In this document: piece after piece, positions 84-39,781 of the stretch
Numbering within the stretch: position 1 is the stretch's first letter
Layout: every line of letters begins with the position of its first letter
From: a virus
Length of the DNA stretch: 39,781 nucleotides
Virus record (IMG/VR): IMGVR_UViG_3300045110_000031
Coordinates: 1 to 39,781 of that record
Strand: one strand, 5' to 3'
Translations under genes and position numbers: made by a program
The notes under the pieces: model-generated
What the model was told of the DNA's origin: nothing
What the model saw: the letters and a program-made list of their open reading frames with translations, nothing else
The model's database searches: none

Positions 84-734
84 ATGAAGAAAGTTCTCAC
101 CTCCCTCGCCCTGGCCCTCTGCGCCAGCATGGCGGGGGCCGTCACCGTAGGGTTCCAGCACGAATTCAGCGGAGGCGTCAACTGCGCCAACCCGGTCACC
201 GGCTGCTCGACCCTGGAAGCCACAGGCTTTGCCGGGGGCGTCCACTTCACCCTCACCGGCACGATGGCACCGGGCGAATTCATCACCGGCCTGTACGGGA
301 ACTTCAACGGGGCAGGCCCCATCGTCGCCACGAACTTCAGCGGCACGGGGCTGAATGCCTTCAACAGCTATGCCTTCTCCAGCAACGCCTTCAAGGCCGA
401 TGGAGACGGGTTCTTCGACTGGAAGATCGACCTGTCGAGCAACCCGCCCCGCTTCGACGGCACCGACACCCTGTCCTGGGACTTCCTCGGCGTCACGCTG
501 CCGTCGTTCAACAGCATCAGCGTGAATGGTTCCGAGGGCAAGGATGGGTTCCTGTTCGCCACGCACGCCCAGGGCTTGGCCTACGGTGGCAGCGGCTGGT
601 TCAACGGCCAGTTGACGCCGACCTCCACGCCCTTCGACGTGACCCCGGTCCCCGAGCCCGAGACGTATGCCCTGATGCTCGCCGGTCTGGCAGTGGTCGG
701 CAGCATCGCGCGTCGCCGCAAGGCCAAGCAGTAG
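84..734 (+). CDS. PEP-CTERM sorting-domain protein 1 (secreted, exosortase substrate)
   Basis: A 216-aa protein with an N-terminal Sec signal peptide (MKKVLTSLALALCASMAGA, cleavage likely near residue 19). The Gly/Ser/Asn/Phe-rich middle is predicted to be beta-rich. The C-terminus (residues about 189-216) is a classic PEP-CTERM signal: VPEPETYALML, a hydrophobic helix, then an RRRK basic tail. In exosortase-bearing bacteria this tripartite signal directs processing by EpsH/XrtA-type exosortases and release to the surface or exopolysaccharide matrix. An AGGAG ribosome site lies 7 nt before the ATG, preceded by GTTTAAAC. It is the first gene of a two-gene cassette with 766-1359, downstream of the replication operon. 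No exosortase is encoded in the window, so the host must supply it. The mature function is unknown. The signal is very clear; PEP-CTERM genes are typical of bacterial chromosomes and surprising in a phage. Confidence 0.92.
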   Translation: MKKVLTSLALALCASMAGAVTVGFQHEFSGGVNCANPVTGCSTLEATGFAGGVHFTLTGTMAPGEFITGLYGNFNGAGPIVATNFSGTGLNAFNSYAFSSNAFKADGDGFFDWKIDLSSNPPRFDGTDTLSWDFLGVTLPSFNSISVNGSEGKDGFLFATHAQGLAYGGSGWFNGQLTPTSTPFDVTPVPEPETYALMLAGLAVVGSIARRRKAKQ

Positions 735-765
735 TCCCTGTCCCACCACCACCAAGGAGAAGCGC

Positions 766-1359
766 ATGAAGAAAGTTCTGTGGGCCCTCGCGGCCCTTCT
801 GGGGGCCCTGGCCCTCCCAGCGCAGGCGGTCCTCGTCTGCGATGGCTGCACCTACCAGGGGGGCGTGGCAACCAACCTGGGGCTGCACGACTCGCTGACG
901 TTCGACAACAGCACGTTCACCAACAGCACGACCGGCACCAACGGGGCCTTCGATAACTTCTGGGTCTTCAGCCTCACCCCTGCCGGGGCGGCCACGCTCG
1001 ATGCGGTGTTCCTGCCGATCCAGAACATCAGTGGCTTCGACGCCAAGCTGTTCAACGTGACTAGCTCGACGTGCGGCGGGACCGGAGCGGCATGCTCTGC
1101 GCTCACGCTGGGCTCGCTGATCGCCGACGCCCCGGCTGTTCCGAGCTTCGTCACGGCCCTGGACTTCCTGACGCTGGAGGCTGGCACCTACGCCATCGAG
1201 ATCAGCGGGCTGGTGTCAGGTCTGGTCACCGGGCAGACGGCATCCTATGCCGGCAACCTGCAGGTCGCTGCGGTGCCCGAGCCCGGCGAGTGGGCGCTGA
1301 TGCTGGCCGGTCTGGCAGTGGTCGGCGGCATCGCCAAGCGTCGCCAGCAGCCAGCCTGA
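766..1359 (+). CDS. PEP-CTERM sorting-domain protein 2 (secreted, exosortase substrate)
   Basis: A 197-aa protein with signal peptide MKKVLWALAALLGALALPAQA, an Asn/Thr/Gly-rich body containing FDNFWVF (resembling the FxDxF-type PEP-CTERM proteins common in Betaproteobacteria), two Cys pairs, and a C-terminal PEP-CTERM signal at about 169-197 (VPEPGEWALML, hydrophobic helix, KRR). The AAGGAGA ribosome site is well placed, 31 bases after the first gene ends. The DNA around the start codon (762-779) is identical to that of gene 1 (80-97), and 21 bases in the sorting helix (1306-1326) match 681-701 exactly, while the middles are unrelated. This points to swapped or recruited cores in a common expression and sorting frame. 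It is followed by a strong terminator. Depends on a host exosortase; role inferred to be at the cell surface or in the matrix. Confidence 0.92.
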   Translation: MKKVLWALAALLGALALPAQAVLVCDGCTYQGGVATNLGLHDSLTFDNSTFTNSTTGTNGAFDNFWVFSLTPAGAATLDAVFLPIQNISGFDAKLFNVTSSTCGGTGAACSALTLGSLIADAPAVPSFVTALDFLTLEAGTYAIEISGLVSGLVTGQTASYAGNLQVAAVPEPGEWALMLAGLAVVGGIAKRRQQPA

Positions 1360-1379: not shown

Positions 1380-1402
1380 AGGCCCGCTTCGGCGGGCCTT
1401 TT
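1380..1402 (+). terminator. Rho-independent terminator after the PEP-CTERM pair
   Basis: Perfect 8-bp stem AGGCCCGC / GCGGGCCT with a TTCG tetraloop, followed by TTTT on the plus strand. It lies 20 bases after the stop of the second PEP-CTERM gene and ends rightward transcription before the convergent late operon. Confidence 0.9.
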
Positions 1403-1642: not shown

Positions 1643-3589
1643 TTAGGCGACCCGCATCCACATGCCGGCACCGCCAGCGGTCTGCGCGCCGATGTTGCGC
1701 CACGTCCCGGTCGAGATGGTCTGGCCCGCACCGCCCGTGTACGCCTGCCACGCCAGCGTGACGCCACCGCCCAGGGCGATGGTGCCCCCAGGCGACAGGG
1801 CCGCACCGGTCACGCCACTGGCCTGGGCGAAGACGAACCCACCGATGGGGATGTTGGCTGCGGTCGCACCGGGGTCGATGGTGACGGTGTAGTCGCCCCC
1901 ACTCATGTTGTGGGTGATGGCGGCCGATGTGCTGACCGGGATCGTGATGCGGGCCGCGCCGTTCGCCACGATGATGGCGGGGTGCGCCGTCAGCGAGCCC
2001 AAGCGGACATCGGTGCCGGCATTGGCCTGCAGGTACACCTGGGCTCCACCCGTGTAGGTCAGGCGGAACACTGCCTGCGAAGCAAACTCGGCGTCCATCT
2101 GGAACGTCGGGCCGGCAACGCTAGCCATCGCACCGAAACCGAAGAAGCCCCCGGCTGTGATCTTCATCCGCGCAGCGGTCGAGGTGCCGAAGTTGAGCCC
2201 CACCGCACTCTGGGTCCAGAGGTTGAAGCATCCGGTGGGTGTGTACGACTCGTAGCCGAATCGGCAGTCACCTCCGCCACCGGCCGTGTGGACGAAGTCC
2301 CCGGCATAGATGCCGAAGCTCCCCTGGTTTTCAGTGTTGAAGCCGGTCGGCACGCGGAAAAATCCGAGCTTGCCTGCCGCACTGGCAACTATGTAGGGAA
2401 CACCCAGGGTGGCCCCGACCGAAATGCGGAACGAGTTATCGGTAGGCTCCAGGCCAATCGAGTAGTCGTAGACCCCCGGCCGGACGAAGTAGACGTTGGC
2501 TCCACCGCCGCTGGCCCCTGCAGACGAGAGGTACAACCGGGCCCTGGAGTTGGCGGTGTTCGATGTGTTCTGGATGATCAGTTGCGCGTCGCTGCTCGGG
2601 GCCGAGTAGGCGATGTTCCCGCCTGCGCCCGAGACGAAGCCGGCAGTGAAGGTGATAACGCCAGATGCGGCAAGGAGTACCTGATCGGTGGCCCCGCCAT
2701 TGCCAGAGAAGGCGATCACCTGGGCAGCGATCCGCATCGGCGCTGCAGAGCCTGCATCGGTGAATGCAGCGATGGAGGTCCCGCTCGTGATGCTGAAGAC
2801 ACCGAAGTTCTGGTTGAGCCCGACACGAACCAAGAACGGCACGCCAGCGAAGCCCACGGTGCCGATGTTGAAACGCCCATCGGCCGTCAGCCGCATCTGC
2901 TCGGACGAGCCCCCGGCCGCGAACCGGATCGTGCCGGCCGCGCCGTTCGCATTGATGGCGAGCCCGCCAGTGCCGTTCGCAAGCAGGAGCCCGGCATGGG
3001 CCCCGGCGAGCGGGTAGGCCGTGTAGCCTGTGCCTGTGAGGATGAATTCGGCGATTTCGGGGAGGCTGTTCCTGAGATAGACACCGCTGGTGGCGTTGGC
3101 GGCGGTGCTGTTGTTGGTGCTGAAGAAGCCGGCATCCCCGTTGAAGTTCTCGACCACGCCGATGTCGTCGAGCGAGGTGATGCCTGCCTCGGCCAGGATG
3201 CCGCCAACGGCCGTGAGCGTGCCGTTGAACGTGACGCCCCCGTTGAAGGCGACCGCACCGGCCACGTTGAAGTCGTTCAGGATGCTGTAGGCCGTGCCTG
3301 ACCACTGGGCGACCTCGACCCCCATGACCGAGACACCCATCACCCCGGCCGACACCTTGTAGATTCCGGTTCCAGTCTCCGAGGCGAAGGCGAAGGCCGG
3401 CTGCAGCACCGTGCCGTCGACCAGCCTGAACGGGGCGATCATCCCGCCCCGGCCGTTGCGGTCGAGCGAGTCGGTGATGCCCTGGGCGATGTCGTCGGTG
3501 GTGGTGTTCGCCCAGGCCGACTGGATGACGGTGTTGGGGACGACCGGTGGCAGCGGCAGCGAGTAGGTGCCTGAGACGTTACGGGGCAT
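1643..3589 (-). CDS. Putative tail fibre / receptor-binding protein
   Basis: A 648-aa protein starting MPRNVSGTYSLPLPPVVPNT. The N-terminal 50 residues (…DDIAQGITDSLDRNGRGGM…) resemble the virion-attachment segment of many podovirus tail fibres. The rest is Gly/Ala/Ser/Thr-rich with repeated short beta segments, as expected for a trimeric beta-rich shaft, ending in a compact hydrophobic region (WQAYTGGAGQTISTGTW…MWMRVA). The start at 3589 overlaps the stop of the upstream ejection-type gene by 11 bases; an upstream in-frame start would extend it further into that gene. No chaperone, lyase or hydrolase motif is recognisable. Assignment rests on composition, length and position. Confidence 0.7.
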   Translation of the reverse strand: MPRNVSGTYSLPLPPVVPNTVIQSAWANTTTDDIAQGITDSLDRNGRGGMIAPFRLVDGTVLQPAFAFASETGTGIYKVSAGVMGVSVMGVEVAQWSGTAYSILNDFNVAGAVAFNGGVTFNGTLTAVGGILAEAGITSLDDIGVVENFNGDAGFFSTNNSTAANATSGVYLRNSLPEIAEFILTGTGYTAYPLAGAHAGLLLANGTGGLAINANGAAGTIRFAAGGSSEQMRLTADGRFNIGTVGFAGVPFLVRVGLNQNFGVFSITSGTSIAAFTDAGSAAPMRIAAQVIAFSGNGGATDQVLLAASGVITFTAGFVSGAGGNIAYSAPSSDAQLIIQNTSNTANSRARLYLSSAGASGGGANVYFVRPGVYDYSIGLEPTDNSFRISVGATLGVPYIVASAAGKLGFFRVPTGFNTENQGSFGIYAGDFVHTAGGGGDCRFGYESYTPTGCFNLWTQSAVGLNFGTSTAARMKITAGGFFGFGAMASVAGPTFQMDAEFASQAVFRLTYTGGAQVYLQANAGTDVRLGSLTAHPAIIVANGAARITIPVSTSAAITHNMSGGDYTVTIDPGATAANIPIGGFVFAQASGVTGAALSPGGTIALGGGVTLAWQAYTGGAGQTISTGTWRNIGAQTAGGAGMWMRVA

Positions 3590-5261
3590 TTTGTTCCACC
3601 TGTTCTTGCACCTGTTGGATCGCCCGAGGATCGGCGGCCGCCCCAGCACCAGCCGCACCACCCAACGGGGCCATCTTCCTCAGGGCCTGGAGCATCGCTT
3701 CCTGGGCCCTGGGCGCGAGCCGGCCCATCATAAAGTCCTGCACCGCCTTGGTCCCGTAGCCGGCCAGGGCGAGCCCTCCAGCGATGCCCTGGGGCGTGAG
3801 CCCGGCCAAGTGGGTGCCGTAGCCGCCCAGGGCCGAGACGACGGCACCACGCAGGGCCGTGCCCGAGTCGGGGAGCTTGGCCTGGACCGTCTGGCCCAGC
3901 CGCGCCATCTCCTGCTGCGGTGCCTCGCCAGCGATGTACTTGCTCTTGCCCGGGCTCCTGTCGACCGTGCGCGAGGCCCGGGTCAGGACGGCCGGCGAGT
4001 AGGCGCTGGGCACCCCCTCGCTCGCGGCCGCTCCCGTCGTCTTGGCGGCCTGCTGCACGGCCTTGAGGCTCGGGTATGCCTTGTCCAGGGCTGCAATTTC
4101 GCTACGGGTAGTTGCATTGGTGAGCGCACCCCGCCACTCGTTGCCGTACTCCCGGGCGACCTTGGCGAAGAGGTGGCCGAGGTCCTGCTGGGCGGGGTCC
4201 TGGCTCGCCATGTACCGTGCAGCCAGGGTCTTCATCTCGCTCTCGGTGCCGTGCGCGCCTGCGGCCGTGGCCTGGGCTCCAGGCACCGGGTTCTGCATGT
4301 GCTTCAGCCGGATCGCGTTGAACGTCTCCTCGACCATGTCCCGCTGGGCCTGCGAGATCGGCAGGCCCTGCGACAGCTTGCGGAGGTCCGGTGTGTAAAC
4401 GACGCTGGCGTAGGGCAGGCCCTCCTTGGCGAGGGCCGTCTCGTAGGCGTTGCTCACGGCCTGGGTGGTCGCATCGACCGTTTCAGCCGCAGTCTTCGGT
4501 GCGCCTGGAGGCAGGGCTGCCTCGCGGCTGGCCTTCTGCCACTGCTCCATCACCTTCGCCCTGGTGTTCTTCAGCGGCCCGCTGGCGAGCGGCACCGACA
4601 TCGCGCCCTCCTCGACAGCGCCGACCGCCTTGCCCAGGGCCGTGCCCTTCTGCGCCATGCCCTGGCCGAAGGTGGGCTTGACGCCCATCGCCTCCAGGGC
4701 CACGGTGTCGGCCGCCTTCTCGCCGATGGGCTTGGCACCCCGGGCCAGGGCCTTGGTGAGCAACTGGCCGCCAGCAGCGCCTGCAGCACCCATGCCGCCA
4801 GCGATGGCCCGCTCCTTGAGGTCGCCAGGAGTCGTCGCTGCCGCACCGGCACCCTGGGCCAGCATCTGGACACCGATGCCGCCAGGGATGAGCGCCAGGG
4901 GTGCCTGGGCTCCAGCCTCGCCCGCGATCTCGCCGGCCGTCGTCTGCCAGCCCTCGGGGCGGTGCGCTTGGTACACCTTGGCGTTCTCGTCGCCCTCGGA
5001 GGTGTCGGCACCGAAGAGGCCCTTGACGCCCCGGATCGCCTTGTCGAAGCCTGAGCCTGCACCGACGAGGAACTTCTCGGTGCCGCTCATGCCGGCATCG
5101 GGCGAGTAGTCGGGCTCGGGTGCGGTCGGTCCCTTGGGCGCGGCCTTGCGGCGCTCGGTGACGGGCGCACTCATCCAGGCCGGCTGGCCTGGAGGGGGAG
5201 GCGCAGGGGCCTGCCCCTGGCCGCCACCGACCGTGATGATGGGAGCGTCCTGCCAGCCCAT
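3579..5261 (-). CDS. Putative internal virion / DNA-ejection protein
   Basis: A 560-aa protein with a Pro-rich start, then MSGTEKFLVGAGSGFDKAIR at about residue 58. That segment is common in ejection (DNA-transfer) proteins of short-tailed phages. Long Ala/Gly-rich amphipathic helices follow (about 110-200 and 470-540), consistent with insertion into the host envelope at infection. The start codon overlaps the previous stop as TGATG, so translation is probably coupled to the gene at 5261-6637. No transglycosylase motif is visible. Confidence 0.65.
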   Translation of the reverse strand: MGWQDAPIITVGGGQGQAPAPPPPGQPAWMSAPVTERRKAAPKGPTAPEPDYSPDAGMSGTEKFLVGAGSGFDKAIRGVKGLFGADTSEGDENAKVYQAHRPEGWQTTAGEIAGEAGAQAPLALIPGGIGVQMLAQGAGAAATTPGDLKERAIAGGMGAAGAAGGQLLTKALARGAKPIGEKAADTVALEAMGVKPTFGQGMAQKGTALGKAVGAVEEGAMSVPLASGPLKNTRAKVMEQWQKASREAALPPGAPKTAAETVDATTQAVSNAYETALAKEGLPYASVVYTPDLRKLSQGLPISQAQRDMVEETFNAIRLKHMQNPVPGAQATAAGAHGTESEMKTLAARYMASQDPAQQDLGHLFAKVAREYGNEWRGALTNATTRSEIAALDKAYPSLKAVQQAAKTTGAAASEGVPSAYSPAVLTRASRTVDRSPGKSKYIAGEAPQQEMARLGQTVQAKLPDSGTALRGAVVSALGGYGTHLAGLTPQGIAGGLALAGYGTKAVQDFMMGRLAPRAQEAMLQALRKMAPLGGAAGAGAAADPRAIQQVQEQVEQNAP

Positions 5262-7072: not shown

Positions 7073-8212
7073 CTAGATCGCCATCGCCGCGATGCCGGCC
7101 ACCGAGCCGATACCGGACATGAGGGCTTGGTTCTGCTGCTGCTTGGCGTTGTAGGCATCCATGCCTGCGCTGTACTGGCTCTGGGCCGCCCCGGAGTAGT
7201 TGGCACCACCGGCCGACTGCGAGGTGTTGAAGCTCGGCATGTTGGGCATCTGCACCTGGGCACCGGTCAGCAGGGCGTTCATCTCGTTCAGCGGCATCTG
7301 GCGCTGCTGCATCTGCTCGGCGATCTGCTGCTGGCGCAGGGTGTTCTGGTACTGTGAAGCCTGGAGTTGCTGCTGGAAGTTCTGCTGGTTCGCGCCAGAC
7401 ATCATCCCGAAGTTCTGCTGGTTCGCGGCCATGTTCTGGCCGAAGCCCTGGGCTTGTGCCGCGTTCTGGAACTGCGCCTGCTGGGCCTGCTCGCCGAAGC
7501 CCTGCTGGCGGGCCTGGAGGTCCATGCCGAAGTTGCGGGCCTGCTCGGTGCCGGCCGTCTGCATGGCGTCGAATGCCTGCCGCGACTGGTTGTCCTGCAG
7601 GTTCTGCATCTCCTGCTTCCAGGCTTGGCTGCCACGGGTCAGGCCCATGTTCTGGAGCTTGCCCTCCAGGGCCGCCTGGGCCTGCTCGTTCTGCGGCTGC
7701 ATGCGGGCCATCAGGCCCTGCTCGATCCGCTGGCGGCCCTGGTCGCCACCCGAGAAAACCTGGGGCTGAATGCCCTGGGTGTTGATGCCGGACATGAGCC
7801 CCTGGCCCGCGCCTCCGGTCTGGTAGGCGTTGGGGTCGAGGTTCTGCGCCTGGACCGCCTGCCCACCGGCCTGCAGCCCTTGCCAGTCGAACGGGTTCGC
7901 CATCGCCTCGCCGGCACGGCCGATCTGGGCCTGGGCGAGGTTGCTCTTGGCGAGGTCGACGTTCTGCTGCGCGTCGAGGGCCGCCTGCATCTGCGGGTCG
8001 AGCGTGGTGTTCTGGGTCCACTTGGTGACGGTCTTCCCGGTGGCCGGGTCGATCATCGAGGACGAGTCCCACTTCTGGGTCCCGAAGGGCGTGATCTGGT
8101 CCGGCCGGTTCGCCCAGTCGGCGCGCGTCTGCGCGTCCTGGCTCGACTGAGCAGTCTTCTCGGCCGCTGCCGTGTAGTCGGGCGGGGGCGGGGGTCCTGA
8201 CTTCTTGCCCAT
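7073..8212 (-). CDS. Gln-rich structural protein, probably tail or ejection complex
   Basis: A 379-aa protein starting MGKKSGPPPPPDYTAAAEKT. A segment near residue 40-60 (WANRPDQITPFGTQKW) is characteristic of a structural protein family found in many short-tailed phages. From about 150 to 330 it is extremely rich in Gln, Ala, Asn and Met and predicted as long helices. The C-terminus (GIGSVAGIAAMAI) is hydrophobic and could be a membrane-inserting segment. The start overlaps the stop of the acetyltransferase gene as TGATG. Confidence 0.6.
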   Translation of the reverse strand: MGKKSGPPPPPDYTAAAEKTAQSSQDAQTRADWANRPDQITPFGTQKWDSSSMIDPATGKTVTKWTQNTTLDPQMQAALDAQQNVDLAKSNLAQAQIGRAGEAMANPFDWQGLQAGGQAVQAQNLDPNAYQTGGAGQGLMSGINTQGIQPQVFSGGDQGRQRIEQGLMARMQPQNEQAQAALEGKLQNMGLTRGSQAWKQEMQNLQDNQSRQAFDAMQTAGTEQARNFGMDLQARQQGFGEQAQQAQFQNAAQAQGFGQNMAANQQNFGMMSGANQQNFQQQLQASQYQNTLRQQQIAEQMQQRQMPLNEMNALLTGAQVQMPNMPSFNTSQSAGGANYSGAAQSQYSAGMDAYNAKQQQNQALMSGIGSVAGIAAMAI

Positions 8213-8634
8213 CAGTGGGTCCTCCGTGGCGCGAGCCACTTGCATTCGTCGCGGCGCATCCGCAGCAGGAAGAGCGAGCCATCGGGGTGGGCCCCGTCAA
8301 GTTCCACCACGAGGCTGAAGCCCAGCCGGCGATTGATGTCGAGCGCGACGACATTGTCACTCGGCACGAAGGCCAGGACCTGATTGCACCCCATGACGTT
8401 GAACGGATAGTCGAAGGCAGCGTGCAGCAGGCGCTTGTCGAGCCAGCCAGGATTGCCGGCCATGTGCATCACCACGCTCGCCTCGTTGTAGCTGTCGTAC
8501 CCGACGACGCCACGCAGGATGCTCGGGTCGGCATCGGAGATGCTGCCGATGCAGCGGATGTTGGGCGACGGCACGAGGCCGATCCGGCTGCACAGCCAGA
8601 AGACGAGGGCGTTCTGCGGCTGGGTGGCAATCAC
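8212..8634 (-). CDS. GNAT-type N-acetyltransferase of the phage late-operon type
   Basis: A 140-aa protein. I chose the GTG start at 8634 because it overlaps the previous stop as GTGA, making MIATQPQNALVFWLC. The C-terminal part (about residues 95-140: ALDINRRLGF … LFLLRMRRDECKWL) matches the acetyl-CoA-binding end of small GNAT proteins often encoded among podovirus tail genes. The substrate is unknown; modification of a virion or host protein is possible. The longer upstream reading frame overlaps the stabilisation gene and looks spurious. Confidence 0.7.
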   Translation of the reverse strand: MIATQPQNALVFWLCSRIGLVPSPNIRCIGSISDADPSILRGVVGYDSYNEASVVMHMAGNPGWLDKRLLHAAFDYPFNVMGCNQVLAFVPSDNVVALDINRRLGFSLVVELDGAHPDGSLFLLRMRRDECKWLAPRRTH

Positions 8635-10265
8635 AGTACACCCCCAGGCTCCACGAGCGCCTGCCAGCCGACGAAGAGAGTGTCGGCCGAGGCCCTCACC
8701 TTCATCGCCAGGGCAGCGTAGCGCCCACTGCCGGCAGCGCCGGTCCACGCCTCGTAGCTTTGCCCCACGCCCGACCAGACCGCGAAGTCCCACAGGCCCA
8801 CGTCCCAGGCACCCGAGCCCGCGCCCAGGTAGGCAGGGGCGGTGCCGCCGATCTCAAGGTTCCACTCACTGTTCAGCCCGGCCTGGATGCCTGGGGCTGA
8901 ATCGGAGATGAAGCTCGGCCGCACCATCTGGAACCGCTTGACCCGGATCGCTTCGCCCATCGCCTGGAAGGCCGTGACGACGATGCCCTCCAAGTCGGTC
9001 CCCGGCACGGCATCGACCTGTCCATCGGTGCCGCCGACGAAGCACTGCCAGATGTTGCCGACGAGATCGCCAGCGAAGACCTTGCCGTTGAAGGCTTCGA
9101 CGGTCAGCATCGGGTAGCCACGCAGCATGGCGAATGCCTTGTTGTTGACCTCGTAGGCCCACTGCAGGTTCTCGATGTTGATCTCGGCGCGATTGATCAG
9201 CAGCAACTGCTCGTGCGGCAGGAACTTCACCTCCCAGTAGCGCACGTCGAGCGAGCCCGCGATCTCGACCGCCAGGGCACTGTTGATGTTGCTGGCGATC
9301 TGCGGGTTCTGGAAGAAGCCCTGGCCGCGCATAAGCTCCGACATGAAGACCATGCCGCGCTCGGACAGGATGGTCACGTCCTGCTGGTAGTTGGTGAAGT
9401 ACCGGGCTCCAACAGGCACGCGGCCGATGTACCAGCGGCCGACCACCTGAAACTCCGCAGCGACGGCAGGATCGTTGCCACCGTAGACGAGGACATCACC
9501 CTGGTCTGCAATGATGATGAACTGGTTCTGGACACCGACACCGCTGCTGCCGTCGTAGGTCCAGTTGATCAGCACCGACAGGCGGCCACCGTTGGGCAGC
9601 ATCGAGCCGAAGTCGAAGACCGTTGCAGCCCCAGCGTACTGCCCGAAGGGCAAGTACCACGCCCTGGTGGTGTCCTTCTCGACGAACCAGACCCGGTTCT
9701 TGTAGACGGTGACGAACGAGAAGGTGTTGGGATTGATGCCGGCGATCTGGTTGGCCCCGGCCCCGAGCGTGATCTGTGTAAACGTCGCACCGTCGTAAAT
9801 CCAGTAGCCAGACCCAGGGTTCACCATCAGCATGACGTGGACGCCCGCCGAGGTGGTGAAGTTGAGCGAGGTCCACTCGCCGATGGGCGTGCCGGTCGGC
9901 ACCGACAGCACCGGGACCGGGACGACGCCAGAGGCCGAGGGCGTGGTCACGTCGTAGATGTCGCCTGCGGCCGTTGCAGCCAGGAGCTTGTTCACCCCGA
10001 GCGGCGACAGGAACTTCATCAACGAGCGCACCTCGCCCGAGAGGTGACTCTTGTGGCGCAGGTAGCCCCGCCGCATCTGACAGCCCAGGACCCGGGGGAT
10101 GAGGTTCTCCAGGCGGATCGCTGTCTGGGGGTCGCCACCCGGCAGCGGCTGGGTCACGTCCAGGCCGCGCAGCGGCGCACCGAACGGGAAGGCTTGGTGG
10201 TTCTGCGTGGCGCTCGACCGCCTGGGGGTCGTGCGACGGGGGCCGTTGTAGGGTTGCAGGCTCAT
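8631..10265 (-). CDS. Head-tail / packaged-DNA stabilisation protein
   Basis: A 544-aa protein starting MSLQPYNGPRRTTPRRSS. It is beta-rich with repeated short blades (for example LLAATAAGDIYDVT, FVTVYKNRVWFVEKD, VFAGDLVGNIWQCF), consistent with a propeller-like tail-hub protein such as P22 gp10-type stabilisation proteins. It sits between the adaptor gene (10510) and the acetyltransferase, the expected place for a tail-closing protein. The start at 10265 overlaps the upstream stop as ATGA. Function by position and fold pattern. Confidence 0.65.
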   Translation of the reverse strand: MSLQPYNGPRRTTPRRSSATQNHQAFPFGAPLRGLDVTQPLPGGDPQTAIRLENLIPRVLGCQMRRGYLRHKSHLSGEVRSLMKFLSPLGVNKLLAATAAGDIYDVTTPSASGVVPVPVLSVPTGTPIGEWTSLNFTTSAGVHVMLMVNPGSGYWIYDGATFTQITLGAGANQIAGINPNTFSFVTVYKNRVWFVEKDTTRAWYLPFGQYAGAATVFDFGSMLPNGGRLSVLINWTYDGSSGVGVQNQFIIIADQGDVLVYGGNDPAVAAEFQVVGRWYIGRVPVGARYFTNYQQDVTILSERGMVFMSELMRGQGFFQNPQIASNINSALAVEIAGSLDVRYWEVKFLPHEQLLLINRAEINIENLQWAYEVNNKAFAMLRGYPMLTVEAFNGKVFAGDLVGNIWQCFVGGTDGQVDAVPGTDLEGIVVTAFQAMGEAIRVKRFQMVRPSFISDSAPGIQAGLNSEWNLEIGGTAPAYLGAGSGAWDVGLWDFAVWSGVGQSYEAWTGAAGSGRYAALAMKVRASADTLFVGWQALVEPGGVL

Positions 10266-10495
10266 GGGTGGGTCTGGTAGTAGGGCTGCTGCTGCGTGCG
10301 CTGCTGGGCCAGCGACTGGGCCTGCGCCTCGCAATCCTCCAGGGCTCCCGACGAGCAGAGGTAGCCCCCGGCTGCGTCACGGCAGATGTACGTCTGGCGG
10401 GCGAAGAAGGCCCCCTCGGCCGGCGTCCCTACGTTGGGATTAGGGACGATTTCAAGCGTTGGAGTGATCACCCAGCCTGGAGGCAAAGTTGCCAT
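10262..10495 (-). CDS. Small hypothetical protein in the head-tail region
   Basis: A 77-aa protein starting MATLPPGWVITPTLEIVPNP, with two Cys near residues 38-54 and a Gln-rich tail ending QQQPYYQTHP. Its immediate leader is a copy of the dispersed motif (TAATCACTGGTGACGAAATG), which leaves only GGTGA as a ribosome site. Translationally coupled to the stabilisation gene (ATGA). No family recognised. Confidence 0.55.
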   Translation of the reverse strand: MATLPPGWVITPTLEIVPNPNVGTPAEGAFFARQTYICRDAAGGYLCSSGALEDCEAQAQSLAQQRTQQQPYYQTHP

Positions 10496-13666: not shown

Positions 13667-14152
13667 TTACTTCGGTGCCGCCTTCGGTGTCGCCATCGGG
13701 GCGATGTACGCCACCACCGGGATCGTGCCTGGGCCGTACCAGAGCAGCGCCGGCTGACCGGGCGAGCCAGCCTTCGGCTGGGCGTTGGGCAACGGCAGGA
13801 CGAGTGCCACCATCACGTTGGTGCCCGAGGGCAGCGGCGGCAGGACGATGGGGTTGGCCGGGTGGCCGGGCTCGACCGCCACCGGGGGCAAGTCTTGGTT
13901 GGGGCTGCCGGGCAGGACGATAGGCAGCGAGATGCCAACGTCGTCGTCGATGTCGATGGTGATCGGCGGGATCGGCGGCCACGTCGTCGGTGGCTGCGGC
14001 CACATGCCGATCACCGGGGGCAAGCTGTTGTCGGGGCGGCCAGGGCGGCCACCGGGCAGGCCCTGATCGGGGCGGCCAGGGCGGCCACCGGGCAGGGTGT
14101 TGTCGATGTCGAGGCCGTTGCCGGTGACGATGAGTGCGGGAGTCGTGGTCAT
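13667..14152 (-). CDS. Proline-rich protein with LPGGRPGRPD repeats, downstream of the capsid gene
   Basis: A 161-aa protein with N-terminal tandem repeats of LPGGRPGRPD joined by short linkers, followed by a Pro-rich stretch (PPTTWPPIPPIT) and a small beta-rich C-terminus. Proteins with repeated LPG…RPD units next to the major capsid gene occur in other short-tailed phages; their role is unknown. The leader is TTGGAGCTACACCACA, one of five related leaders in this genome. It lies downstream of the capsid terminator, so its expression may be lower than capsid. Confidence 0.55.
   Translation of the reverse strand: MTTTPALIVTGNGLDIDNTLPGGRPGRPDQGLPGGRPGRPDNSLPPVIGMWPQPPTTWPPIPPITIDIDDDVGISLPIVLPGSPNQDLPPVAVEPGHPANPIVLPPLPSGTNVMVALVLPLPNAQPKAGSPGQPALLWYGPGTIPVVAYIAPMATPKAAPK
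14031..14096. repeat. 30-bp perfect direct repeat, period 36
   Basis: 14031-14060 and 14067-14096 are identical 30-base units separated by 6 bases. They encode the LPGGRPGRPD repeats of the gene at 13667-14152. Such in-frame repeats can expand or contract by slippage. Confidence 0.9.
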
Positions 14153-22700: not shown

Positions 22701-22957
22701 CACGCACTCTCCCACAGGCGCTCGCCGATCTGCACACCGTACTCGTAGGGCTCGGCCGTGAGCGCCAGCAGCAGGCCGCTGGTGATCTCGACCCGCTTGG
22801 GCATGGGCAGCGACAGCGTCATGTCGTCGCGGCACTGCCTGACCACGAGGCCGGTGAAGCGCGAGCCCAGGCCATGCTCCAGGCCGCGTGCGAAGGCCGC
22901 AGCCTGATCCCAGGGTTGCCAGGGCAGCCTTGGGCTTTCGCTACGGGTAGTTGTCAT
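22700..22957 (-). CDS. Small hypothetical protein
   Basis: An 85-aa protein starting MTTTRSESPRLPWQPWDQAA. Codons 2-8 are made from a copy of the dispersed motif (TTTCGCTACGGGTAGTTG on the opposite strand). The start is coupled to the methyltransferase stop (ATGA), and its own stop to the 25-aa gene (TGATG). Predicted mixed alpha/beta; no recognised domain. Confidence 0.55.
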   Translation of the reverse strand: MTTTRSESPRLPWQPWDQAAAFARGLEHGLGSRFTGLVVRQCRDDMTLSLPMPKRVEITSGLLLALTAEPYEYGVQIGERLWESA

Positions 22958-23673
22958 GCCATCCCCAGCCACATGCTCGGGTTGGCGGTGTCCGCTGCCA
23001 GCATCTCGCACACCCTGGCACCCAGGACCTCCTCGGGCAACCTGTACCACTGCAGGCCGTAGTCGAGGCGCACCAGCCCTGCCTGCTGTAGCTCCAGGCT
23101 CTTCAGCGTCTCGTACTGCTGCACCTCGGCGAAGGCCGGCGAGCCATCCACCACGTCCAGCACGAGGAGCGTCCCTCCTGGCCGCAGGCAGGCACGAGCC
23201 ACGTCGAGCATGTGCGGCACGTCGGTGCAGTGGTGCAGCGAGTAGCCCAGCACGGCCACGTCGAAGGCCGCCCAGTCTGGGATGTAGCTCAGGGTGCCAG
23301 CGTCGCGCATGTCGGCCTGCACACGGTCACCAGGGCACAGGCAGCGGTCTAGCTGGGCCCTGGAGGCGTTGACCAGGGTGAACCGAAGGTCATGCCTCAC
23401 CTGATGCCAGTACCGCTCCATGCCGCCGATGCCGCAGCCGAGGCTGATGACCCTGGCGTCCTGGGGAGCGTTTACACGGCCCAGCACGCTGATGCTGTGC
23501 ATACGCTCGTCGGGGTAGAGCATGAACAACTGGTAGACCGTCTGGCCCCTGGCCGTCAGCCAGTCGGTCACGTCGCCGACCAGCTTGTCGTCGCTGTACA
23601 GCGGGTGACCTCGCGGCGGCCAATTCCCAGTGACGAAATGCGACCGCGACAGGTCTGTGCCGTTGGGCTCCAT
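22954..23673 (-). CDS. Class I SAM-dependent methyltransferase
   Basis: A 239-aa protein with the start chosen at MEPNGTDLSR because GGAGG lies 6 bases upstream; a GTG at 23721 is the alternative. The SAM-binding motif I is ISLGCGIGG (about 76-84), the acidic residue D121 follows a later strand, and FDVAVLGYSLHHC (about 138-149) and ACLRPGGTLLVLDV match Methyltransf_11/UbiE-like enzymes. There is no DNA-methylase catalytic motif (DPPY/NPPY or PC), so a small-molecule, lipid or protein substrate is more likely. Unusual position between the terminase subunits. Confidence 0.78.
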   Translation of the reverse strand: MEPNGTDLSRSHFVTGNWPPRGHPLYSDDKLVGDVTDWLTARGQTVYQLFMLYPDERMHSISVLGRVNAPQDARVISLGCGIGGMERYWHQVRHDLRFTLVNASRAQLDRCLCPGDRVQADMRDAGTLSYIPDWAAFDVAVLGYSLHHCTDVPHMLDVARACLRPGGTLLVLDVVDGSPAFAEVQQYETLKSLELQQAGLVRLDYGLQWYRLPEEVLGARVCEMLAADTANPSMWLGMA

Positions 23674-23725
23674 CACCGTCCTCCAGCCCTTCAGCGAGGC
23701 TACATCGACCTGCTGGCCCACAGCC

Positions 23726-30352: not shown

Positions 30353-30946
30353 ATGAAGAAGTCCCCCGCCCCCGTCGCCACGTTCACCCGCGAGCAGTGG
30401 CTTGAGGCCGCAGTTCAAGCTGTCGCCCAGGCGACCCCCTCGGTCACGTTCCCGCCCGTCAAGGTGTCCTGCTCCTGGCCGGGTGGCGGCAGCGCCCGCA
30501 AGCGCATCGGCGAGTGCTGGGCCCGCAAGATGTCCCAGGCTGGCGTCAACGAGATTTTCATCAGCCCGAAGATCGAGGACAGCACCAGGGCCGTCTCGAT
30601 CCTGATGCACGAGCTTGCCCACGCTGTCGACGACTGCAAGAGCGGCCACAAGGCCGGCTTCGTCAAGATCGCCAAGAGCATCGGCTGCGTCGGCAAGCCC
30701 ACGCAGATGGAGCCTCCGGTCGAGGTCGCCAGCGCCATCGCCAAGGTGGTCAGCGACAAGCACGGTGCCTACCCCCACCGTGGCCTGGACCTGAGCAGCC
30801 GCAAGAAGCAGTCGACCCGCATGATCAAGTGTGAGTGCGGCCACTGCAGCGCAGTCTGGCGCATGGCCGCCAAGACCATCGCCCAGGTCGAGGGCGAGAT
30901 GTCCTGCCCGGTCTGCCATGCCGAGGACGGTGTCGCCTTCGGCTGA
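30353..30946 (+). CDS. SprT-like zinc metalloprotease
   Basis: A 197-aa protein with the zincin motif MHELAHAV (His86, Glu87, His90) and a likely third ligand region SGHKAGF (His99), as in SprT/Spartan-type domains. The C-terminus holds a zinc ribbon (CECGHCSAVW … CPVCHAEDG). Spartan proteins cut DNA-bound proteins; phage versions are mostly uncharacterised. CGGAG ribosome site. Lies between two early promoters just before the replication module, which suits a role in clearing proteins from DNA. Confidence 0.78.
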   Translation: MKKSPAPVATFTREQWLEAAVQAVAQATPSVTFPPVKVSCSWPGGGSARKRIGECWARKMSQAGVNEIFISPKIEDSTRAVSILMHELAHAVDDCKSGHKAGFVKIAKSIGCVGKPTQMEPPVEVASAIAKVVSDKHGAYPHRGLDLSSRKKQSTRMIKCECGHCSAVWRMAAKTIAQVEGEMSCPVCHAEDGVAFG

Positions 30947-37768: not shown

Positions 37769-39172
37769 ATGCAGTACAACCCGCTCCCGTTCCAGCAGAA
37801 GGCCATCTCCCTCGTTTGCGACAAGCCGGGCTCTGCCCTGCTGCTCGACCCGGGCATGGGCAAGACGGCCGTCACCCTGGCCGCCCACTGCGTGCTGCAG
37901 TTCCACGACCTGATCCAGGCGACCCTGGTCATCGTGCCCCTGCGGCCGATGTACCTGACGTGGCCGGCAGAGGTCGCCAAGTGGGACCAGTTCAAGCACC
38001 TCAAGGTGTCCATCATCCACGGGTCGGCCGCCCAGCGGCTGGCCGCCATCGAGAAGAAGGCCGACATCTACCTCATCAACCCCGAGAACGTGGCGTGGCT
38101 CGTCGCCATGCTGAACGGTAGCCTGGGGCTCTTCGGCAACATCCCTGGCCTGCTGGCGGTCGACGAGTCGACCCGCTTCAAGAACGGCCAGAGCGTCCGC
38201 TTCAAGGCCCTGAAGACCATCCTCCCGCTCTTCCCCCGCCGCACGATCCTGACCGGCACCGTCGCGCCCCAGGGCATCGAGGACCTCTTCGCCCAGATGC
38301 AGATCGTGGACGACGGCAAGCGCCTGGGCAAGTTCATCACCCACTTTCGTCGCCTCTTCATGTACTCGACCCCGCTGCGGATCGGTGGCGGCCGCACCAT
38401 CGACGAGTGGCATGTCAGGCCGGGCGCTGCCCAGATGATCACGGCCGCCATCAAGGACGTGGCCCTCAGGCTCCAGGCCGAGGACTACCTGACGATGCCG
38501 GCCATCACCTACAACGTGATCCCGGTCGAGCTTCCCAAGGCCGTGCGCTCGGTCTACAAGTCCCTGGCCGACGACCTCGTCGCCCAGGTCGGCGACCAGA
38601 AGCTCACGGCCGTGACGGCAGCCGCCGCGACGATGAAGCTCCGCCAGATCACCAATGGCTGGGCCTACAACGAGACTGGCTCGGTCCACGTCCACGACGC
38701 CAAGCTCGACGCCCTGGCCGACCTCGTCGAGGAGCAGTCGGGCACGCCCCTGCTGGTGGCCGTCGCCTTCCTGCACGAGGTGCCGGCGATCCGCGAGAAG
38801 CTCGCCAGCGTCCTGCCGAAGGGCACCAACGTGCCGTACCTGGGCGGGGGCGTCAGCCGCACCCAGGCCGACGCCACGGTCGAAGCCTGGAACAAGGGCG
38901 AGGTCCCGGTCCTGCTGGTCCACCCGACCTCGGTGGCCCACGGCCTGAACCTCCAGGCGGGCGGGCACGCTGTCTGCTGGTTCGGCCTGACGTGGAACCT
39001 TGAGGAGCATATCCAGACCAACGCCCGGGTGTACCGCCAGGGTCAAACGAAGCCTGTGGTGATACACTACCTGACGGCAAAGGACACCGTTGACGAGGAC
39101 ATCGCCAAGGCGCTCGTCGACAAGTCCGATCTGCAGTCAGCCATCCTCAACCGTCTCAAGGGATCGAAATGA
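37769..39172 (+). CDS. SNF2/DEAD-type helicase
   Basis: A 467-aa superfamily 2 ATPase. Q-like start PLPFQQKA, Walker A LDPGMGKT (Gly29-Thr33), motif II VDEST (Asp132, Glu133), motif III LTGT, and motif VI NARVYRQGQT (Arg420, Arg423). This is the typical phage SNF2-like helicase that follows VRR-NUC. Probably remodels DNA or removes proteins during replication or recombination. Ends by overlapping the next start as ATGA. Confidence 0.9.
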   Translation: MQYNPLPFQQKAISLVCDKPGSALLLDPGMGKTAVTLAAHCVLQFHDLIQATLVIVPLRPMYLTWPAEVAKWDQFKHLKVSIIHGSAAQRLAAIEKKADIYLINPENVAWLVAMLNGSLGLFGNIPGLLAVDESTRFKNGQSVRFKALKTILPLFPRRTILTGTVAPQGIEDLFAQMQIVDDGKRLGKFITHFRRLFMYSTPLRIGGGRTIDEWHVRPGAAQMITAAIKDVALRLQAEDYLTMPAITYNVIPVELPKAVRSVYKSLADDLVAQVGDQKLTAVTAAAATMKLRQITNGWAYNETGSVHVHDAKLDALADLVEEQSGTPLLVAVAFLHEVPAIREKLASVLPKGTNVPYLGGGVSRTQADATVEAWNKGEVPVLLVHPTSVAHGLNLQAGGHAVCWFGLTWNLEEHIQTNARVYRQGQTKPVVIHYLTAKDTVDEDIAKALVDKSDLQSAILNRLKGSK

Positions 39173-39483
39173 GAAAGCCCAAAGCCCCCGCCAGCCGCCC
39201 CGAAGGCTCGCGCCTCGCCATCGTCAAGCTCCCCCGGGAGATGCCGGACGGCAAGACCACCAGCGGCCACCCGCTGACGTGGCTGGTCCGCGAGAAGATG
39301 GGCGAGCGCAACAAGTCCGACCTTGCGCGGCACATGGCTGTCGCGCCACAATCCCTCTACAAGTGGGAGCGGCTGTGCCGCGCCGACCGCAACTACCCCC
39401 TGCCGATCCCCCGGGCGATGGAGATCGCCAAGTTCTTCAACGTGAAGCCCTCGCTGCTTCGCCCCGACATCTTTGGAGCCTGA
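39169..39483 (+). CDS. Cro/YdaS-like helix-turn-helix protein
   Basis: A 104-aa protein. Residues about 48-70 (RNKSDLARHMAVAPQSLYKW) form a helix-turn-helix, and the C-terminal PRAMEIAKFF … SLLRPDIF is characteristic of Cro/YdaS-like regulators. ATGA-coupled to the helicase. It is the only HTH regulator of this type and lies just before the PEP-CTERM cassette, so it could control late or moron expression (inference). Confidence 0.75.
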   Translation: MRKPKAPASRPEGSRLAIVKLPREMPDGKTTSGHPLTWLVREKMGERNKSDLARHMAVAPQSLYKWERLCRADRNYPLPIPRAMEIAKFFNVKPSLLRPDIFGA

Positions 39484-39485
39484 AC

Positions 39486-39701
39486 GTGCCCGGTATCCGC
39501 GACCCCTACACCCTGGTCTTCGACCAGCAAGAACTTGAAGTCGTCCTCCAGGGCCTGGGCAAGCTCCCGGCCGAGCGGAGCTACAACCTCCTGACCCGCC
39601 TGGGCAACGAGATCGCCCAGGAGAACCAGCGCCGGCAGGCACCCCCGGCCGATTCCCAGGGCGTCGGCAGCGCCGATCTGGTCGGCGTCCCGGTCCAGTA
39701 A
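39486..39701 (+). CDS. Small hypothetical protein
   Basis: A 71-aa protein with a GTG start 3 bases after the previous stop: MPGIRDPYTLVFDQQELEVV, helical, ending VGVPVQ. It fills the space between the HTH gene and the PEP-CTERM cassette without gaps. Its 3' end is repeated at 1-47. Unrecognised; similar short helical proteins often end phage early operons. Confidence 0.6.
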   Translation: MPGIRDPYTLVFDQQELEVVLQGLGKLPAERSYNLLTRLGNEIAQENQRRQAPPADSQGVGSADLVGVPVQ

Positions 39702-39781
39702 TTCCCCCGTCAGTCGTTTAAACCTCAGGAGTAGCGCATGAAGAAAGTTCTCACCTCCCTCGCCCTGGCCCTCTGCGCCAG
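39655..39781. repeat. Terminal direct repeat of the contig (copy 2)
   Basis: Identical to 1-127; see that entry. Covers the stop of the 71-aa gene and the start of the first PEP-CTERM gene. Confidence 0.95.
39738..39781 (+). CDS. 5' fragment of PEP-CTERM protein 1
   Basis: Repeats the start of the gene at 84-734 (signal peptide residues MKKVLTSLALALCA). Partial only because the circular contig is cut here. Confidence 0.9.
   Translation, partial: MKKVLTSLALALCA

Follow-up and report, generated by a model that had tools for sequence, protein, structure and literature searches.

Several phage lineages probably keep a genomic slot for exported proteins, in which interchangeable ectodomains carry exosortase tags tuned to the dialect of the host, such that a host pathway would display viral proteins; that is to say, these viruses probably run a PEP-CTERM arm of their own. 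The strongest evidence, drawn from sequence comparison, is the modularity of the slot, with its swappable ectodomains, together with sorting tails that co-vary within one phage. The slot was analyzed in a 39,781-bp virus record (the window, that is, the whole stretch), which begins and ends with the same 127-bp repeat, as in a circular assembly, and looks like a complete phage genome. The genes of the terminase large subunit, portal, and major head protein lie on its minus strand, and those of DNA polymerase A, a VapE-like primase/helicase, an exonuclease, and a helicase lie on its plus strand (window annotation). No integrase was recognized among the proteins scanned. The features around the slot are as follows.

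1–127, with an identical copy at 39655–39781 (no strand): terminal direct repeat, from repeat comparison; supports circular closure.
84–734, plus strand: PEP1, 216 aa, predicted Sec-exported PEP-CTERM protein of a phage-specific clade, with the tail VPEPETYALMLAGLAVVGSIARRRKAKQ.
646–722, plus strand: PEP1 sorting-tail DNA, first copy of the 77-bp direct repeat D3, 79% identical to the PEP2 tail.
766–1359, plus strand: PEP2, 197 aa, predicted Sec-exported PEP-CTERM protein of the FxDxF family, with the tail VPEPGEWALMLAGLAVVGGIAKRRQQPA.
1271–1347, plus strand: PEP2 sorting-tail DNA, second copy of D3.
About 1380–1399, plus strand: terminator-like hairpin AGGCCCGC-TTCG-GCGGGCCT, then TTT (z = −2.9), closing the plus-strand operon.
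1643–3661, minus strand: convergent tail-fibre-like gene with a conserved N-terminus and a variable C-terminus, adjoining the slot in most relatives.
8631–10334, minus strand: lysis-like amidase, away from PEP1 and PEP2.
37769–39172, plus strand: SNF2/DEAD-type helicase, the conserved upstream marker of the slot.
39169–39483, plus strand: HTH protein with a weak YdaS-like match, between the helicase and the slot.
39486 over the circle junction to about 47, plus strand: 71-codon ORF after the HTH gene.

PEP1 and PEP2 form the 3′ end of the plus-strand replication-side operon and face the tail gene at 1643–3661. Other contigs show the HTH gene–PEP1 junction intact; therefore, the closure of the circle is not an artefact there. 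The hairpin was absent from the listing of a separate consensus terminator scanner, and a sigma-70 scan found no promoter directly upstream of PEP1.

An earlier note, made from the sequence alone, had described two tandem PEP-CTERM proteins with a signal peptide and a full C-terminus, a claim that scores below the profile thresholds would have contradicted. Both proteins scored above the cut-offs of PF07589 (34.1 bits for PEP1 and 22.2 bits for PEP2; cut-off 20.7) and TIGR02595 (24.7 and 21.0; cut-off 16), and both ORFs are thereby confirmed as genuine PEP-CTERM proteins. A PEP-CTERM search across the window returned E values of 8.8e-11 and 6.1e-7 and zero matches in 14 control genomes. As read from the sequence, the signal peptide of the two proteins and their orthologues comprises an MKK start, a hydrophobic segment, and an A-x-A site; hydropathy gave one N-terminal and one C-terminal hydrophobic segment in each protein, the latter ending basic. 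PEP2 also qualifies for full membership of the FxDxF PEP-CTERM family NF038126 (71.4 bits against a cut-off of 50, residues 33–193), whereas PEP1 is not, its score of 44.3 coming from the tail alone. PEP1 has the conserved motifs FKADGDGFFDW and FLFATHAQGL. Neither protein received a PHROG assignment, and Pfam recognized no depolymerase or binding domain in either. The predicted ectodomain models are beta-rich but of low confidence (pLDDT 66 for PEP1 and 62 for PEP2), and their many matches include weak carbohydrate-binding-module-like ones. Foldseek gave no match below E 0.001 for PEP1, whose best VIA Z of 7.5 is at a common level, and three below 0.001 for PEP2, with a TM of just 0.24–0.29. 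Because these are generic beta-sandwich matches on low-confidence models, we drew no function from the folds.

Scans of viral contigs, a check proposed in the earlier note, recovered PEP1 at 16 loci and PEP2 at 11 loci, and a wider scan added further PEP1 relatives at 49–56% identity. The gene order helicase, HTH, PEP1, PEP2, and convergent tail gene was repeated on many viral contigs. Comparison of whole records placed PEP1/PEP2 in at least 3 phage backbones: (i) a window-like backbone (G014), with a head protein 99% identical to that of the window; (ii) a backbone with a 64% identical head protein and PEP1 without PEP2 (G008 and G015); and (iii) a backbone of 34–68 kb with the order PEP2–PEP1, in which the structural proteins of the window were not detected (G010, G011, and G012). 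Pairwise dN/dS was about 0.17–0.66 for PEP1, 0.15–0.66 for PEP2, and 0.13–0.45 for the helicase, which indicates that PEP1 and PEP2 are under purifying selection, weaker than that on the helicase. Since the pair recurs on independent contigs and backbones and the closest bacterial relatives of PEP1 reach only about 30–37% identity, the pair is, by this comparison, not a chromosomal insert. The placement between replication and late genes in a closed circle, and the exclusion of contamination, thus both held: phage genes lie on both sides, the 127-bp repeat supports a circle, and the pair ends a plus-strand operon. Among 50,697 GenBank phage records, no relative of PEP1 or PEP2 was found. The nearest named phage by head protein is the Stenotrophomonas phage BUCT555 (66.6%), in which a PEP-CTERM search gave no match. 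At one locus (L081, 3884–4555), a frameshift or sequence error splits PEP1 in two ORFs, and the adjoining PEP2 is intact. Two viral contigs from different samples, of 138 kb (L103) and 54 kb (L115), each encode a 138-aa PEP-CTERM protein, with the N- and C-terminal sequences in common. Many further PEP-CTERM ORFs are present on IMG/VR contigs, some possibly in host flanks.

The contents of the slot were surveyed with the neighbouring helicase as the marker, which gave 30 loci at 69% identity or above; 4 of these end before the slot, leaving 26 readable slots, with several near-identical contigs counted separately. Of the 26, 21 carry PEP-CTERM proteins, whose ectodomains fall into two unrelated types: 11 slots hold PEP1 with or without PEP2, and 10 hold PEP3, an unrelated, conserved PEP-CTERM protein of 271–277 aa. 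In one slot, another signal-peptide protein is cut off by the contig end ahead of its C-terminus, one slot is empty, and 3 hold a secreted protein pair without a PEP tail. Each of these pairs consists of a Ser/Ala/Thr-rich protein and a 219–220-aa protein, and Pfam gave no match for the pair of L172.

L172, 8089–8721 and 8738–9400: untagged secreted pair.
L175, 5485–6123 and 6147–6806: untagged secreted pair.
L177, 8106–8735 and 8752–9414: untagged secreted pair.

Because tagged, signal-peptide, and untagged secreted proteins all occupy the slot, export is the property common to its contents, and the locus is, judged by what it carries, a slot for interchangeable exported-protein cassettes. 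Exosortase sorting is not essential to the phage group, since 3 relatives carry the untagged pair and one slot is empty. Convergent to the empty slot lies a gene for a secreted DUF1996 protein (L176, 4421–5656, minus strand). PEP3 also occurs in other backbones and is paired once with PEP2, on a 64.7-kb viral contig (L199, 5359–6816), an arrangement which shows, at the level of gene content, that ectodomains recombine as modules. At another locus (L009), a PEP1 body carries a PEP2-type tail and PEP2 is missing, as would be expected if D3, the 77-bp tail repeat, had served for recombination.

The tails of PEP1 and PEP2 from the same phage are more alike (identity 0.716) than those of shuffled pairs (0.571; exact p = 0.00015, 8 lineages), and the matching persisted without the two most divergent lineages (p = 0.0056). 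This concordance may stem from host matching or from gene conversion between the adjacent 77-bp repeats; both would preserve the tag. In PEP3, the tails diverge more than the bodies (mean identity 0.55 and 0.71, respectively). The exact PEP1 tail motif of the window, PEPETYALMLAGL, is present in 17 of 300 Burkholderiales genomes, and an exosortase was found in 16 of these 17, compared with 3 of 19 sampled genomes without the motif. No exosortase (PF09721) was found in the phage records tested, the window included. As the phages tested have no exosortase and bacteria with this tail dialect mostly do, the sequences are most naturally read as those of a phage that relies on the enzyme of its host, in agreement with the proposal of the earlier note, which mentions neither the modular slot nor the co-varying tails.

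In a scan of 84,980 GTDB species, which was keyed on exact conserved peptides such that some relatives may escape, the PEP1 relatives were only 29–37% identical; 399 Burkholderiales genomes, searched with a profile, yielded two distant matches and no close chromosomal copy. PEP3 had no match at E 1e-15 in the same 399 genomes, although an empty outcome of such a scan proves little. One Burkholderiales chromosome carries a tandem pair of a PEP1-like (37%) and a PEP2-like (35%) gene, flanked by dTDP-sugar epimerase-like and sugar nucleotidyltransferase-like genes (names read from the sequences), with an exosortase gene about 19 kb away on the same contig. This pair sits among nucleotide-sugar and polysaccharide genes, an arrangement that suggests a bacterial pair associated with polysaccharide as the ancestor of the phage pair. 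As a route to the host through prophages, the head protein of the window was searched in the 399 genomes; the one match (52%) lay in a genome without a PEP-CTERM match and so does not identify a host.

Given established PEP-CTERM biology (PMC1569441) and the tags, PEP1 and PEP2 would be exported during infection by the Sec machinery of a host that we infer to be exosortase-positive, and would be tethered in the inner membrane by the C-terminal helix and Arg tail. The host exosortase would then cut near the PEP motif and release the beta-rich ectodomains towards the surface of the cell or the extracellular matrix, so that the infected host would become coated with viral proteins. The altered surface or bound-exopolysaccharide layer might lower the adsorption of competing phages or superinfection, which is the likeliest benefit; retention of the cell in an aggregate is a possible by-product. 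In Aquincola, overexpression of the PEP-CTERM protein PepA moves exopolysaccharide from the soluble to the cell-bound fraction and restores floc formation (PMC9850573), an experimental precedent, by analogy, for an extra PEP-CTERM protein shifting polysaccharide to the bound state. We lean towards display of PEP1 and PEP2 by the host exosortase with fewer competing phages as the main gain, against which it may be held that a lytic phage has little time for remodelling a surface. A role in the matrix is nearly as likely as an anti-competitor surface change, and a form of it without exclusion is possible, in which the proteins would bind host exopolysaccharide, anchor it, or displace the PEP-CTERM proteins of the host from it, leading either to aggregation, with more hosts nearby, or to a looser matrix for release. 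Floc formation needs PEP-CTERM proteins and exopolysaccharide jointly (PMC9850573), and the chromosomal counterpart pair among polysaccharide precursor genes and the carbohydrate-binding-module-like fold matches point the same way, but these matches are weak and unspecific, and the failure of Pfam to recognize a depolymerase or binding domain also speaks against this form.

The tails themselves might be the active part, with PEP1 and PEP2 occupying the host exosortase and blocking the sorting of host surface proteins, and the ectodomain serving as a carrier. The tails are conserved, co-vary in a given phage, and are attached to three unrelated ectodomains, as such overload would have it, but conservation extends along the whole ectodomain (mean body identity 0.64–0.71) under purifying selection, which a carrier would not need, and we regard overload as improbable. 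Lysis or envelope disruption by a protein like a unimolecular spanin would share the same topology, that is, a signal peptide, a beta-rich periplasmic domain, and a C-terminal membrane helix. This role is very unlikely: the tested PEP1, PEP2, and PEP3 members have no lipobox, for which the unimolecular spanin was rejected, the PEP motif is invariant, and the genes belong to the plus-strand replication operon, away from the amidase. Strand and operon position also disfavour a virion protein. PEP-CTERM genes are frequent in the likely hosts, and the possible host flanks among the other IMG/VR matches would suit passive cargo, that is, genes acquired by chance from a chromosome or a misassembled insert. 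Orthologues at the same locus on many independent contigs, purifying selection, and the lack of a close chromosomal copy in the GTDB scan or the 399 Burkholderiales genomes make cargo the least credible of these readings, and misassembly or host contamination was rejected on the recurrence of the locus over independent contigs and backbones.

Viral use of PEP-CTERM sorting was described nowhere in the literature searched, a partial collection queried for PEP-CTERM or exosortase together with phage, in line with the statement of the earlier note that no such phage system was known. The phage proteins share with the PEP-CTERM/exosortase (EpsH) system of Haft et al. 2006 (PMC1569441) the signal peptide and the short C-terminal PEP motif, transmembrane helix, and basic tail, and their tail sequences are the same as those of exosortase-positive Burkholderiales. 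They differ from it in being phage-encoded without an exosortase and in phage-clade ectodomains without close bacterial relatives; that paper does not mention phages. Even PEP2, for all its NF038126 membership, belongs to a phage clade that resembles Burkholderiales members weakly (best 48 bits). PepA of floc-forming Aquincola and Zoogloea (PMC9850573; NF033554), which itself affects cell-bound exopolysaccharide, has the same sorting tag, but this tail is the only shared part, as PEP1 (25.8) and PEP2 (19.9) score far under the NF033554 cut-off of 80. In a passage of a hot-spring virome study (PMC11003980), proteins with an “exosortase interaction domain” (TIGR03118) on virus contigs are mentioned in passing and counted as horizontally acquired cellular genes; the passage describes neither a conserved slot nor an analysis of tails nor a phage lineage. 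PEP1 and PEP2 resemble, by description, a further class of small phage-encoded exported or envelope proteins from exchangeable loci, such as Llp, Cor, and SieA. Such proteins block superinfection, and none of them is known to use a sortase-type C-terminal tag.

Sorting by the PEP-CTERM/exosortase system is common among Gram-negative bacteria of the environment, whose matrix it shapes, yet the roles of most substrates are obscure. That phages have long kept and recombined such substrates implies that the displayed proteins matter during infection, and the phage slots offer small, testable cases for learning what the system puts on display and for what reason. The slots also suggest that surface proteins may give phages an influence on flocs and biofilms, as in activated sludge, and that uncultured phages could be assigned to hosts with the help of tail dialects.

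Elsewhere in the window, an SprT-like protein is encoded in the early region (30353–30946, plus strand), and a class I methyltransferase domain lies next to the terminase gene (22954–23721, minus strand). An Acyl-CoA N-acyltransferase (GNAT, phrog_4470) lies inside the tail gene region (8212–8793, minus strand), and the tail region of BUCT555 has an annotated GNAT gene too. A 36-nt repeat occurs in two tandem copies at 14018–14089, inside the ORF at 13667–14152 (minus strand).
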